Shown piece by piece: positions 13,873 to 20,400 of a stretch of DNA of 64,000 nucleotides. Source of the stretch: Ilex aquifolium (Eukaryota; Streptophyta; Magnoliopsida; Aquifoliales; Aquifoliaceae). Location of the stretch: contig OX637402.1 of assembly GCA_951799425.1 (NCBI GenBank), forward strand, positions 31,960,492 through 32,024,491, in the 5' to 3' direction. The notes under the pieces are model-generated. The model made no database searches, was not told the origin of the DNA, and saw only the letters and a list, made by a program, of their open reading frames with translations. The position numbers and the translations under genes were made by a program. Every line of letters begins with the position of its first letter. Positions within the stretch are counted from its first letter, which is position 1.

Positions 13873-14009
13873 TTATCCGTATGTTTTATAATTTCCTATT
13901 GAGAGCGGGCTCTTCTTTGGTACAGTTTCGGTGTGCCGAAGTCCCAGAGTGAGGGACACTTCACCTGCCGAAGTCCCAAGCCTAACAAGCGAGGACGCCA
14001 TGTTTGCAC
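13873..14009 (-). CDS. Displaced C-terminal exon of the BEL1-like homeodomain gene
   Basis: After an acceptor CTGCAG| at 14010-14015 the minus strand reads ANMASSLVRLGTSAGE, then VSLTLGLRHTETVPKKS, and stops at 13873-13875. VSLTLGLRH is the conserved C-terminal tail motif of BLH2/BLH4-type BELL proteins. Its first codon has only two bases in this exon. A donor at 14785-14786 in the upstream exon leaves one base, so the join CHYS|ANMASSLV keeps frame. That model gives a 642-residue protein and a 777-bp intron filled with transposon DNA. The donor (ATA|GTGCTC) is weak. The segment may instead be a tail stranded by insertion. Confidence 0.65.
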
Positions 14010-14396
14010 CTGCAGTGGTTCAATGGCAACATTACATGTCATTGTCATGCACAGATATCGGGCTCATGAGTGGCAGTAAATCATAAACTGTCAATCTTAC
14101 TTGAAATTGACACAAAGTTAGTAGTATTCGTTTAATCTTTTATAGATTCATGTGATACTTAGGTTGATCTGTAAAAACCCGTTTAACAAAATAAATTCTA
14201 TGAATTCGATAAACCTATTTGAACACAACCCGAATGGACACAAAATTAATGAATATGGTTCTATTTTAATGAGTTTTGGTTATAAACATGTTAACCTCTT
14301 AGACCCATTTAACAAATAAGTTGACACAAACCCTCATGGTGACTTGTGGATAATACAATAATGACACGACATGAATTCTGATTTATAGACTTGACT

Positions 14397-14773
14397 ATGG
14401 TATCGAAAAATAAAATTTTAGTATCATACCTCTGTTTATCACATTTGTGGTTGTTTTTACTATATTTGTGGGTATTTTTACAATTTATGTGGTACCCAAA
14501 ACCATGGTAAAAATAGGTTCTACAATAGTATTAAAAACATCCACAAATGTGGTAAAATACCCACAAAAATAGTAATTTTTTTTATATGGAAGAAAAGTGA
14601 TAAAAATAATTACTACAAATGTGATAAAAACACTCATAACAGTAGTAATCATAAAAGTGATAAATTTTTTTATTATAAAATAATCTATAAAAATTATAAA
14701 AACACCCTTTAAAATAATAAATTTTAGAGGTGTAATACATAATTTTTTTTGTCGGTACTTTAGTCAAATCCCT
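14397..14773. mobile_element. hAT-type MITE, family A, copy 2
   Basis: It has the same organisation as 2346-2700: terminal repeats AGACTTGACTATGGTATCG on the left and, read inward, AGGGATTTGACTAAAGTACC on the right, with AAAANTGATAAAAA-type motifs between. The flanking bases no longer match, so the insertion is old or nested. DNA to its left (14100-14396) also looks transposon-derived. Its right end lies 2 bp from the TAA that closes the contiguous last exon of the BEL1-like gene. Confidence 0.65.
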
Positions 14774-14775
14774 AA

Positions 14776-17700
14776 TTAAAGAGCACTATAATGACACCAT
14801 AAATGGCATGCAGAGGAGATGGTAGTGATACCTTCGATCATGTGTTGGTTTCCCAAGGAGTTCTGCCTATAATTGATGGTGTTGTTTGAATGGTCCTTGT
14901 CTGTTGCACTGAAATGGGATCTTTTGCCTGCTGACAAAGGTATTGATGTAGTAGTATCACACATTGGCTTTTGTGCAGAGATGCTGAATTGGTGGTGATC
15001 TTCTTGAGAGTTGGGTTCATTAGCTTCTTTTGCTGAAGCCTCTTGATCTTCTTTGGCCTCTTCTTGGTACATGTCCTCCACCATGGGTTTCCACAACCGA
15101 ACCCTGGCATTAATGAACCAGTTCGATACCTGAAAACGTGAAAATTTATTGTGTTTGGAAAGATGATAACAAATTGGATGAGTAATAAATGGCCTGCATT
15201 GATTTCATCACTCATCCCATGCAAGAAAGATGTAAATGCTAGTTACTGATCCTGTTTGTCCTCCACAGTGCTGAATGTTTTTTTGATCAATTCTAGTGAA
15301 ATTTAATTTGTTAACCTAATTTATTATAGTATTTGGATTGATTGTGGATTCCATTAAATATTAGAATTTAGTGTTAATCCAATGATTCTAATAATGTCAC
15401 ATCACTAAATCAGCAAATTAAATCAAATTTTTAAATCCAAATAATATTACTTTTTCTTTTTTCATACCCATGATGCAAGTTATATAACTAGCGTTGAAGT
15501 AAATTATGATCTATTAAAGTATTGCCACTAGACTAATATAGAATCTCATTCTTTTAACATTCATCATTAATTTTTCAGTAATGCTATGCTAACCAAAATT
15601 ATGGACCAAATAAAGAATTCAAAAGACATGGCAGTTGCTGATATGACAAGATTAACTATCATGTCATTTTTTTTCCTTGTTTTTCTTGTCTGTACGTGTT
15701 AGGGAAGCGGAAAAAATGAAAAGATTTTGTCCCATCTATTCTTGATTTGGAGAAGACGAAAAGATTTTGTTGACATGACAGTTAATCTTTCCATATAAGC
15801 AACTGTCATGTCATTTGAACTCTTTATTTGGTCCCTAATTTTGGTCAGCATAACATTACTGTTAATTTTTTTTTCTTGGTCAGACACTATTAGAAGGGAT
15901 GGGGACAACGAGGTTCGCATCAACGCCCCTAAGACCCAACAGCGGAGACGGTGACTATTAGACCAACGACTAACCTTTAACTCATTATTAATTCAAGGAT
16001 GATAATATTAGATCAATAAATGTTAACATCATTTGATCTTAGTAAAGATAAGATGACTCTCCTTTTACTCTTTTGCCCATGAACCAAGTTTCCGACAATA
16101 GCTTACATATTATAGTAGCACTGAGGGGGGAAATATATATATATATATATATATCTATTTATGAGGAGATCTCTATGGATCCGAAATGATACTAATGTGT
16201 GGTGTTCAATTTACTACTGCAACAATTCAATAATAACCAATAGGGTTGGAATTGTATCAAATGGTCTGAGACCAGCTTCAATTGTTACTGAAAGTTGTTC
16301 AACGGATCAGTAAGAACTTGAAAGAGACATTGTGAATCCAACGATAGTGATCAATAAATTCAACGAATTAAGATCATTACACCAAGCATTAATACCCTTT
16401 TTCTAGCATTTTTCATAATTTCTTCTTGTCACAATCAACCTAGCCACCTCGCCCCAAAATTGTAAAAGCTGGTTAAACTGACAAAAAAATTAATTCAAAA
16501 ATAGAGACAGGATGATTTAACGCTAATATGACGAGAGAAGTTGAATTATGAATGAATGATAAGATAAAAAATAGTATAATTTCAGTACTAAATCATCTGG
16601 TTCACCATTTTCAGCCAGAGATAATAAATACATAAAGGTATCGTTTCAAAAAGAAAAAGAAAACTTAGAGATTGCATATATTAAAAGGTGAATTGAGTTT
16701 TCTCTTTCAAGGGACATATGACCTAACAATTTTAATGTCAAAAGAAGTAATGTGAGTACCTGACTTTTGGACAAACCAGTCTGTCGAGACAACAAATGCT
16801 TGTCTGCTTCACTTGGGTACCTGCCGCAAGCCACAAAATATGACGTTATAAGGACCTCCTCGCTCCATTTCTGTATTGAACAATACATTTTCCGGAAAGA
16901 TCAATGTTATTGGGACCTAATTTACTGCTCCATCAAACATTAGAATTTGGTGTTGATCTAATAGTTTCACTGAAATTATATCATTAGATCAACAAATTAA
17001 ATCAAATTTTTATATCCAAATAATAGTACTCTTCTCGAAAGAGCTTGAGTGAAGAGGTAAAGATAAGGATCTCTTCTCAATAAATTTTACACTAGGGTAT
17101 TTACTATCATCATGTTTAATACATATAATCTTGAAGCTTTAATTTGCTTGCATGGTAGTCAACAGTTGATGAGTTCTTGAAACGTTTTCGGGGTAAATAC
17201 CTCAAACAAAGTCAGTTTTGGGTTTCAAGTAGTGATATTTTCAAGCATAATAATTGTATAAACTTTGTGTATGTGTGTGTGGAGAGAGAGAGAGAGTACG
17301 GGTGAAGAAAATGCTCAAAAAGCCAGGCTCTCAATATGTTAACAGAACGATCAGGCAAGCCTCTCTGGGGCCTCCAAGCTTCAGGCTCCAACATTCCCAT
17401 TTGCTGAATGGCTCTCTGCTGCCTTAACTGCTGCTCAAGCAGCCGAAGTCTGGGTGTCTCTCCTTTCGTCAAGCCGAATGTACCTGTCACATCTTTCTCT
17501 CCAAGAAGCTCACAAGTAAGCTTCAATTGAGCCACTATTGCATCCTTGGTGCAGCGAAAATGCCTTGACATTGCCTTCTGGGCAAGGGCTGTGTATGGAG
17601 CTGCAGCCCCAAAACCCATCACTGAATCGAACGAGTTAACCATTATTTGCATTTGTTCACAGTAACGGTTGTACCGCAAACTCACCTGTTAAGGATGAAA

Positions 17701-19699
17701 ACATACTCAAAACTGCTAGAATAGGCTCAAAGATAAAGGCTTACGCTCAAGCTCAGAGTAATTTGTTACGAACTTTGTATTGTATTTGTATACCAACTCT
17801 ATTCAAATGTGTGGTTCGAACTAAAACATCTAAATTCTTACTCATTTCGGCATTAGCAAAAAGTGATAAATAAGGAATTCTTGCATTTTATTTGAAGAAA
17901 TTGAAGTATTAAACGGACCCTCAAAGCTCCATTTGTCACCTTTCTATGGGAAAGGAAAAAAATTATTTATTATCTTCACCTGCGAAATTAGGTGTGTGAA
18001 ACCCTAGTTTCTTGACAGAATCTTGTAGTGTATTTTATCTTTGTAGTGGGAAAAATATGTCATAGGATCATGGGCATCAACTGGCAAAAAAGTAGAAGCA
18101 GGAAGGTTAATTTTTAAAGTTTTCTGAAAAATATAGGTTTTCTTACCAACTCTCTTTGCTTCTTTAACCAAAGCATGCCAGAATCCATGGTACTATTATG
18201 CCAGGAGGAGAAGAGTTATAAACTTATACCAATAATTGATCAATTTTATAGTATAAGAATGGTACTAAAAAATAAAACAGTGAATCGGAGAGAGAAATGG
18301 TCCCCCAGTGGAGGCAAATAGAAATCGTTTGCTTTCTTAGTAGAATTTCTATGATTCGCACGGATGGATCTGCAGCTCAGAAGCCTTATTACTAATGGCT
18401 TCCACCCCTATAATGGAGGCATGTCGGTCCTTGCTGGACATGTACCCTCAGGTTGAAGCCTCTCATGTTCTCTAAAGGAACATCCAAACTGTACACACTC
18501 GAAAATAATGATTACTGGATTAATAAACAGTGAAATGATTAATGTGATTGATTTGTTTAAGACGGAATCTCATATTATGAGCTTGCTTTCTCAATTCTTG
18601 CAAATTGAAATGCAAAAAGTTCAACTTTCTTGATCCGGTGGTCTGTGTGCATTAGTGAACATGTGCCCCGGAGAGAGAGAGAGAGAGAGAGACTTGCCTC
18701 GTCAAGCATAGACAACAGTTTGACCTTTTTCCTCTGGTATTCAGACTTTGCAGTAGCTGATAATGGTGGGTGGCCCTTCAATGAAGTAGCGGCTGAAGAA
18801 GCACCACTATGATTGTCTAAATTAGAATTATGGGTTCTGTTATGCTTCTTGAGAGTCTGATTTTTGAAGTGGCCCCTTCCAACACAGCAGAACTCTTCCA
18901 GCAATTCCTGAACAGCCTTCAAATACCTAGAATTTCTCAAACCATTCTCAATTCTCTGAGTTGCTGCAAACCCAACTAGAACTTGAGAATTGTGTTCTCT
19001 AATTCCTTGTGAATGTAATAGTTGTTGATTAATCTCCAAGTTCTTTGATTCATATGGATTTATAGAAGACCCTTCTCCATGATTACAGAAGAAAATCCCA
19101 TTATTTCCCACCCTCAATTCCTCGAGTTTTGCAGCTTCCAAGTTCTGTAATGAAGACGATAATGACAGAGAAAGACCTTGACCCTCCACTAACCTTCCAC
19201 AGCTGCTACCAGGAACCCAAGAGAGTTGAGCCGGACGGTTCATGCTGGCTGTAACATCTGAACCTACCAAGTGAAACCCTTGAAGCTGAGAGTCTGATGA
19301 GTTTGGGAATAACATGTTCAGAGAAGATGATGTACCGGAAGGAGAAGGTGATTTGACTTGAGTGTTCATGGAAGAAAGCTGCATAGAATTTGTTGATGAG
19401 ACTGCATTAATGCTCAAAAACTGATGATTACTCACTATATTACCACAATCATTATCATCAACATGTTCCACTTCCCCCAAAATGGCTACCTCGGCCTCAT
19501 TTGCTATTGTTTGTAGCTGTTTTGGTGGCCACTTATAATATGGATTGATCTGATCATTGAAGATGTCGGCGGTGGCTACAGGCCAGGATGGGAAGTTGAT
19601 GACCTGAGAAAGCATTCCGCCGGTGTCATATACCGGCAAATTGCCGGAAACTTCCTCTTGTAGAGACTCTGGTGGGTCGAAGCCTTGCACTCTTAACAT
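14776..19699 (-). CDS. BEL1-like homeodomain transcription factor, BLH2/BLH4 (SAWTOOTH) type
   Basis: BELL proteins pair with KNOX homeodomain proteins in the nucleus; the SAWTOOTH members restrain KNOX expression in leaf margins. Exons: 18698-19699, 17300-17685, 16760-16820 (the typical 61-bp exon) and 14776-15129, giving 600 residues. Seen in order: [16 protein letters not shown] near the start, [11 protein letters not shown] (about 174), the SKY region [15 protein letters not shown] (about 257), the BELL domain ([12 protein letters not shown] ... [19 protein letters not shown]), and a TALE homeodomain with the PYP loop and [16 protein letters not shown]. Intron 1 uses a GC donor. The ATG at 19699 is the first usable one: a longer frame reaches 19738 but begins GTG, with a stop upstream and no ATG. 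The contiguous frame ends [11 protein letters not shown] without the family tail; that tail lies at 13873-14009. Confidence 0.88.
15576..15861. mobile_element. Mutator-like fold-back MITE in BEL1-like intron 3
   Basis: Two inverted arms of about 90 bp each begin CAGTAATGCTATGC on the left and, read inward from the right, CAGTAATGTTATGC. They are nearly identical over most of their length and separated by about 100 bp. An exact 9-bp duplication TTAATTTTT flanks the element (15567-15575 and 15862-15870), the length used by Mutator-like elements. Transcribed as part of the intron, it would fold into a long hairpin. Confidence 0.8.
18661..18697 (-). promoter_or_regulatory. GC-type 5' splice site followed by a CT repeat
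   Basis: Exon 1 of the BEL1-like gene ends GACGAG, and the intron begins GCAAGT, the consensus of minor-class GC-AG introns. The next bases are a run of CT dinucleotides. The reading phase (LDE|VSLRY) and the conserved BELL position require this border. The nearest GT lies four bases further and would break the frame. Confidence 0.85.
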
Positions 19700-19731
19700 T
19701 TCCTTCTGGTTACTGTCTCCTATGTGCTTTG

Positions 19732-20400
19732 TCACCACAGATCTTTCATACCCCTTTGAAGATTTGATGTGTTAGTGGAAGCTTTGGGACATAGAATTTG
19801 AAGAAGTAACACCTTTTCGATTTGGACTTCAACGTGCTGGTGATTTCAGTTGTAGGACTGGTCTTTTTGGTGAGACAACAAATTGCAGGATGGTTTAGAA
19901 CTTTAGATAGATCAAAGAACAGATTAAAGAAGAAATGAAATGTTAAACAAGAAAGAGATTTTGCAGAAGAGATCAACATATGTGTAGATTCAAAATCTTT
20001 AATACTTGAGATGAAGTATAGATGGGTTGTTTGAATGGATCTGATTGTTGTTCTTGTTTAATTGTTATTTATTTTTTTTTTTTTCTTTTTTTGATGGCTA
20101 GTTTGGTAGTTGATATTTACCTGGTTATAGCTGCAAAGCTGGAACTGAAGCTGAAGAACTCAGAAAACATCCTTTTCTCTGTGTGTTATAGAGAACTACT
20201 ATCTCTTCATCTTTTGATCTTTGATTCATCTTTCATATCGCCTTCATGAGAACTGTGAACTGAATTCACAATCAGACAACAAACAAGCCAGTGGGATGGG
20301 GATAACGAAAGGGGAAGGAGAGAATAAAGGTCCCCTTTTAACTCTTCCTCTTCCCTTCCTCCTCCACTTTCACCCTACTTTCTTTATAATATCAGGACAT
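19732..20400 (-). promoter_or_regulatory. Leader of the BEL1-like gene with upstream ORFs and a possible 5' intron
   Basis: On the minus strand a pyrimidine-rich leader runs down to the ATG at 19699. A good donor, CAG|GTAAAT, lies at 20119-20123, so a 5' UTR intron is likely. If 19732-19980 is kept in the mRNA it carries two upstream ORFs. One has 77 codons (ATG at 19979, stop at 19746). The other is MKDLW (19749-19732) and overlaps the end of the first. I cannot see which acceptor is used. Confidence 0.4.

Follow-up and report, generated by a model that had tools for sequence, protein, structure and literature searches.

The question raised by this locus is whether a BEL1-like homeodomain gene whose conserved VSLTLGL tail (14009-13873) is parted from its homeodomain exon by about 0.8 kb still encodes that tail as part of its protein and, if so, how the interruption came about. 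The window (the whole stretch of DNA analysed, 64,000 nt of Ilex aquifolium contig OX637402.1) carries the gene on its minus strand, with five predicted coding exons (Table 1); spliced in silico, these give a stop-free frame of 627 codons, tail included. The reading toward which we lean, with some reserve, is that an ancestral last exon was split by a derived, repeat-filled intron, which would be spliced out and leave the tail still translated.

Table 1. Features of the BEL1-like gene and of the DNA separating its last two coding exons (positions are those of the window; a slash marks an exon-intron boundary).
Feature	Position	Strand	Remarks
Coding exon 1	18698..19699	-	In-frame ATG start (MLRVQGF...); donor GAG/GCAAGT (GC donor); aligned with the C1 paralog
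Coding exon 2	17300..17685	-	386 nt; latter half of BELL/POX, then the first part of the homeodomain
Coding exon 3	16760..16820	-	61 nt; homeodomain
Coding exon 4	14832..15129	-	298 nt; ends at predicted donor AAG/GTATCACT
Predicted intron 4	14010..14831	-	822 bp, phase 1, 71% A+T; not in the C1 paralog
Presumed target duplication, MITE upstream end	14772..14780	-	TTTAATTAG
In-frame TAA	14776..14778	-	Protein end if intron 4 is kept
MITE	14387..14771	-	385 bp; ends GGATTTGACTA.../...TAGTCAAGTCT; high-copy, with other copies showing 9-bp target duplications
Presumed target duplication, MITE downstream end	14378..14386	-	ATAAATCAG; 6/9 identical to TTTAATTAG
Second, very degenerate repeat	14103..14332	-	14332-14233 clear; 14233-14103 weak
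Coding exon 5	13873..14009	-	137 nt; acceptor CACTGCAG/GTGCAAAC; includes the VSLTLGL motif and the stop codon

The predicted protein matches the POX (PF07526; 148.3 bits, cut-off 27) and Homeobox_KN (PF05920; 68.4 bits, cut-off 24) families; by its POX domain and TALE (KN) homeodomain, it is a BEL1-like homeodomain protein. We provisionally take the gene to be BLH2/BLH4-like (the SAW1/SAW2 branch), a label that follows the Arabidopsis proteins; ATH1 was dropped as its identity, and a different family member (L058) is presumably ATH1. In a family tree restricted to genes of the Ilex aquifolium genome (14 of 16 included; L045 and L059 were left out), its nearest relative is a gene on contig C1 (L057; support 99/99), called the C1 paralog below. 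Over 128 columns of exon 2 the two are 81% identical, with an exon 2 dS of 1.6; the paralogs are old. Other family pairs in the genome have exon 2 dS values of 1.6 in one case and of 0.29-0.52 in four close pairs (L038/L039, L043/L044, L042/L046, and L035/L036), which would fit the trace of a whole-genome duplication in the lineage. The 61-nt length of exon 3 is also that of 12 of the 13 active potato BEL genes, as described in the text of PMC3904721.

At the other end of the gene, intron 1 opens with the same GC donor (GAG/GCAAGT, window 18698-18697, minus strand) in both the window gene and the C1 paralog, with a CT-rich run within a few bases after it in both; it is seemingly a GC-AG intron retained since the old duplication. 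Exon 1 encodes an N-terminus that may extend upstream. Relative to the C1 paralog, the window gene as read from its first in-frame ATG is short of about 70 residues at the N-terminus, and the frame upstream of exon 1 (window 19700-19771) bears some likeness, by eye, to that paralog; the gene may have an upstream exon or encode a shortened protein.

The original prediction held that the tail had been cut off from the last exon, reappearing beyond the gap behind an acceptor in a compatible phase, and that the open frame of the contiguous exon ended at 14776. Reading frames and alignment with the C1 paralog bear this out: the contiguous frame stops at the TAA at 14778-14776, VSLTLGLRH is in frame within the tail exon, and the frame joined across the acceptor at 14009 stays open. 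In the C1 paralog, one unbroken exon runs from the homeodomain through to VSLTLGLRHTGNLPEKSPFSVRDFGGF and the stop codon. A POX family search of the genome gave 31 matches, grouped into 16 genes including the window gene. Among the 15 others, homeodomain and motif share a single exon in all 12 that could be assessed (the C1 paralog included), with variant motifs in two of these (SLALGL in L037, VSLSLGL in L086). Outside the assessable set are L058, which ends without the motif; L059, in which the homeodomain exon was not seen; and L049 (2421-2523), whose homeodomain exon stops after 34 residues, with no VSLTLGL-type motif in the next 630 bp read, and which may encode a short protein or have a second split tail. 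Since the exon is unbroken in the C1 paralog and throughout the assessable set (12/12), the split looks derived on the window gene's line, as had been suspected from the start, and it is quite probable from this comparison that intron 4 was gained there. The relatives that lack the insertion and are unbroken at the place of intron 4 (the C1 paralog and 11 others) are all paralogs; when viral contigs were scanned with exon 4, no relative was confirmed.

Published BEL gene structures, mostly of four exons, agree with a derived split in exon number, intron positions being absent from the text of these sources. As given there, 12 of the 13 potato genes have four exons, StBEL11 being the odd one out (PMC3904721); so do all the BEL genes of sweet orange, the BEL1-like genes of soybean apart from GmTALE26, and those of barley apart from HvBELL4 and HvBELL7. 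Tomato SlTALE9, grouped with BIP, is given 6 introns, and three tomato BELL-IV genes are given five exons, in both cases with places unstated in the text; these tomato genes potentially count against a derived split. For Prunus mume, 10 exons are given for PmTALE15 and 2 for PmTALE21 (named BLH2 there), while the passion fruit and cucumber accounts state exon numbers as ranges only. The five-exon StBEL11 was weighed as an earlier instance of this intron and rejected, as the source paper places it with BLH1. Our literature search gave no paper that we recognised as reporting intron 4 of the window gene, which is no proof of absence.

The DNA within the gap had been described as about 0.75 kb of transposon-like sequence, with a hAT-type MITE lying 2 bp from the stop codon. 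The MITE itself is real and of high copy number: of the 2189 candidates that a genome search with the gap stretch gave at first look, 40 were scored, and 39 of these lie at other places, with 71-81% identity. Its inverted ends match at 77% over 35 nt. Its distance from the stop needs correction, the TAA sitting inside the presumed upstream target duplication, and its assignment to hAT does not hold. For target duplications, 24 MITE copies were read and the 17 with both ends used, 7 with weak ends being omitted. The 9-bp flanks match at 9/9 in six of these copies and at 8/9 in four (10/17 together), with a mean identity of 0.73 against 0.30 at displaced flanks. An 8-bp register scores alike in the same 17 copies (11/17, mean 0.73) because it is nested within the 9-bp register; since all nine bases match in the six perfect copies, the duplication length is taken as 9. 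Target-duplication length is tied to transposon superfamily, and 9 bp favours a Mutator-type element and disfavours hAT, so the MITE looks Mutator-type. The flanks of the window copy itself, at 6/9, are a weak figure alone, since the same level occurs at 12 out of 400 places nearby. A 13-bp direct repeat (14355-14367 and 14785-14797, 12/13 identical) was also entertained as a target duplication. Against the consensus of 24 other copies, the window copy has a K of 0.18, a biased value that serves as a guide only, since the selection of copies rested on their resemblance to the window copy, and one that the age of the family may inflate; judged by this divergence, the window MITE is old.

The second repeat is harder to delimit. 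A direct genome search with 14010-14385 returned only itself. A pattern allowing C/T and G/A alternatives was found at five other places, against none for the reversed pattern, and pairwise alignments at these places were in 5/5 cases best over 41-100 bp, at 71-76% identity and with the 29-base pattern included. A profile of 10 loci matched the second repeat with an E of 2.7e-10 (1.9 for a second piece), evidence that is partly circular in that the loci had been selected for resembling the window. Given these pattern, alignment, and profile matches elsewhere, the idea that it is single copy was rejected. Matches of 14010-14385 within the examined DNA, the best at window 1754, gave no extension, and the left flank was rejected as part of the second repeat (scores 10-13 against shuffle means of 11.0-11.8); the limits given for this degenerate repeat are approximate. 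Elsewhere in the window, 1650-1745 is a repeat with 75-82% matches at four further genomic places.

Intron 4 has an A+T content of 0.71, against 0.56 and 0.50 in the adjoining exons. The MITE begins 60 bp inside it, and about 200 bp of the intron lies in neither repeat (some 50 bp on the upstream side of the MITE, and some 140 bp further down). Repeats are found in the other introns as well: intron 3 (15350-15454) and intron 2 (16929-17033) share a direct repeat of 105 nt with 80% identity, and intron 3 also has an inverted repeat (15569-15666 and 15771-15868, with 98-nt arms 87% complementary) of foldback or MITE-like form. Repeats have thus entered the window gene more than once.

These observations bear on how the intron arose. 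It might be older than its repeats, part of the exon having been intronized, or some other route taken, with transposons as later arrivals. The intron DNA that lies in no repeat found would fit such a history, as would the C1 paralog's roughly 40 extra codons at this place, which could have turned into intron, and the repeat-bearing introns 2 and 3 make insertion into existing introns a ready alternative. We nonetheless think it unlikely, there being no intron at the same place in any of the 12 assessable family genes. The read-through peptide next to the donor was rejected as a leftover exon, its likeness to the C1 paralog not being significant (P 0.15), a result that favours neither history for this donor-side piece. 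Of the "intron birth by transposon insertion" first proposed, then, the derived state of the interruption stands on the paralog comparison, but the founding role does not follow, as part of the intron is non-repeat and introns 2 and 3 also carry repeats. That a transposon insertion founded intron 4, rather than enlarging an existing intron, is conceivable but somewhat doubtful; founding by a transposon, and repeats filling an intron that had arisen in another way, are two possible histories, both live.

Whether the intron would be removed depends on its predicted splice sites. A GT donor, an AG acceptor, and an open joined frame are all present for an intron at 14831-14010. On a generic plant donor matrix (100 GT/GC sites ranked), donor 14832 (AAG/GTATCA) scores 6.5 and ranks 5th, the gene's own donors of introns 1, 2, and 3 scoring 5.2, 1.7, and 7.7. 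On a matrix built from 22 donors of the BEL family, the lowest of which scores 5.5, it scores 1.2, 16th of 99 and under that lowest member; to call it a strong new donor, as its generic rank might suggest, would be too simple. The donor originally proposed, at 14785-14786 and joining CHYS, is very poor on both matrices (donor 14787, ATA/GTGCTC: -0.5, rank 52/100, on the generic matrix; -7.6, 85th of 99, on the family matrix). The donor at 14832/14831 is better, yet mediocre. With a score of 4.9, the acceptor at 14009 comes eighth among 61. Altogether 27 site pairs keep the motif in frame; by the family matrix, junction 14832-14009 ranks 11th, below the GC donor 14928 joined to 13964 or 14009, 14832 joined to 13964, and others. 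Splicing with continued translation of the tail appears probable; that it takes place at exactly 14832/14009 is less sure.

The tail itself gives some indication of continued use. In an alignment of 44 codons it is 50% identical to the C1 paralog, and VSLTLGLRH is unchanged. Its dN against that paralog is 0.32, compared with 0.51 for exon 4, 0.39 for exon 1, and 0.11 for exons 2-3; dS is 0.9-1.6 and is not computable for the tail. Neutral decay of the tail was simulated, success being an open frame with VSLTLGLRH unchanged and indels being set at one per ten substitutions. Simulated survival is 0.3% with indels and 2.7% without at a K of 0.18, 5.7 and 16% at a K of 0.09, and 19 and 35% at a K of 0.05. 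On this moderate evidence, the tail looks retained. Its last ten residues (LSIGNYKTYG, window 13873-13905) have drifted from the FSVRDFGGF of the C1 paralog, which fits weakened constraint.

Drift at the extreme C-terminus would also suit a gene truncated by the insertion, its protein ending at the TAA and the VSLTLGL tail surviving as a decaying relic. The frame is open as far as that TAA, an AATAAA hexamer lies within the MITE at 14674, and the family matrix rates the predicted donor as mediocre; moreover, the potato BEL6 and BEL31 proteins are without the motif, according to the text of PMC3904721, so its absence is tolerated in the BEL family. Truncation is nevertheless improbable in view of the open tail, the acceptor, and a VSLTLGLRH that has stayed the same through a long period next to the MITE. 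As an intermediate case, splicing might coexist with intron retention or internal polyadenylation, giving proteins with and without the motif; the mediocre donor, the competing in-frame junctions, and the in-frame stop and AATAAA inside intron 4 are all consistent with an optional tail of this kind, to which we assign a low probability. A more elaborate version, in which a transposon inserted in a coding exon founded a working intron with splice sites supplied by the flanking exon, the tail being optional and splicing efficiency setting its dose, seems to us very doubtful.

If, as we prefer, a derived and spliced intron splits the ancestral last exon, that exon would have become two on the window gene's own line of descent, and the 822-bp insert would be removed as an ordinary GT-AG intron. 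Its splice sites would lie outside both repeats (donor AAG/GTATCA, acceptor CTGCAG/GTG), splicing would join ...HMIEG-ANMASSLVRLGTSAGEVSLTLGLRH..., and the Mutator-type MITE and the degenerate repeat would together occupy most of the intron. Few intron gains are caught while the repeat DNA inside the new intron can still be recognised. If splicing and an empty exon in relatives hold, the locus would offer a datable example of an intron gained next to a transposon, a conserved motif being dependent on it.

In most of its structure, the gene resembles known members of its family. Like the BLH2/BLH4 (SAW1/SAW2) branch, it combines POX and Homeobox_KN domains with a 61-nt third exon and encodes VSLTLGL, and, as described for BEL1-like genes in the text of PMC3904721, it has an intron inside the first proline codon of PYP. 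It differs from them in its fifth coding exon and in having the motif off the homeodomain exon, the two being kept together in the 12 assessable relatives. A transposon-associated intron is a known kind of event. Introners, as presented in the text of PMC9860276, are likewise non-autonomous DNA transposons with inverted ends and a target duplication that lie inside introns, and in one Introner family the splice sites are outside the element, as is predicted here; the intron of the window gene differs in holding two repeats, not one. The wide survey in that paper is described as finding no Introners in land plants, and a proven case would therefore be worth having. The rice OPR genes, as described in the text of PMC2688005, also have a MITE within a plant gene intron, and intron gain is proposed there for green algae only; in rice, MITE fragments lie in introns, whereas in the window gene the intron itself is specific to the gene.
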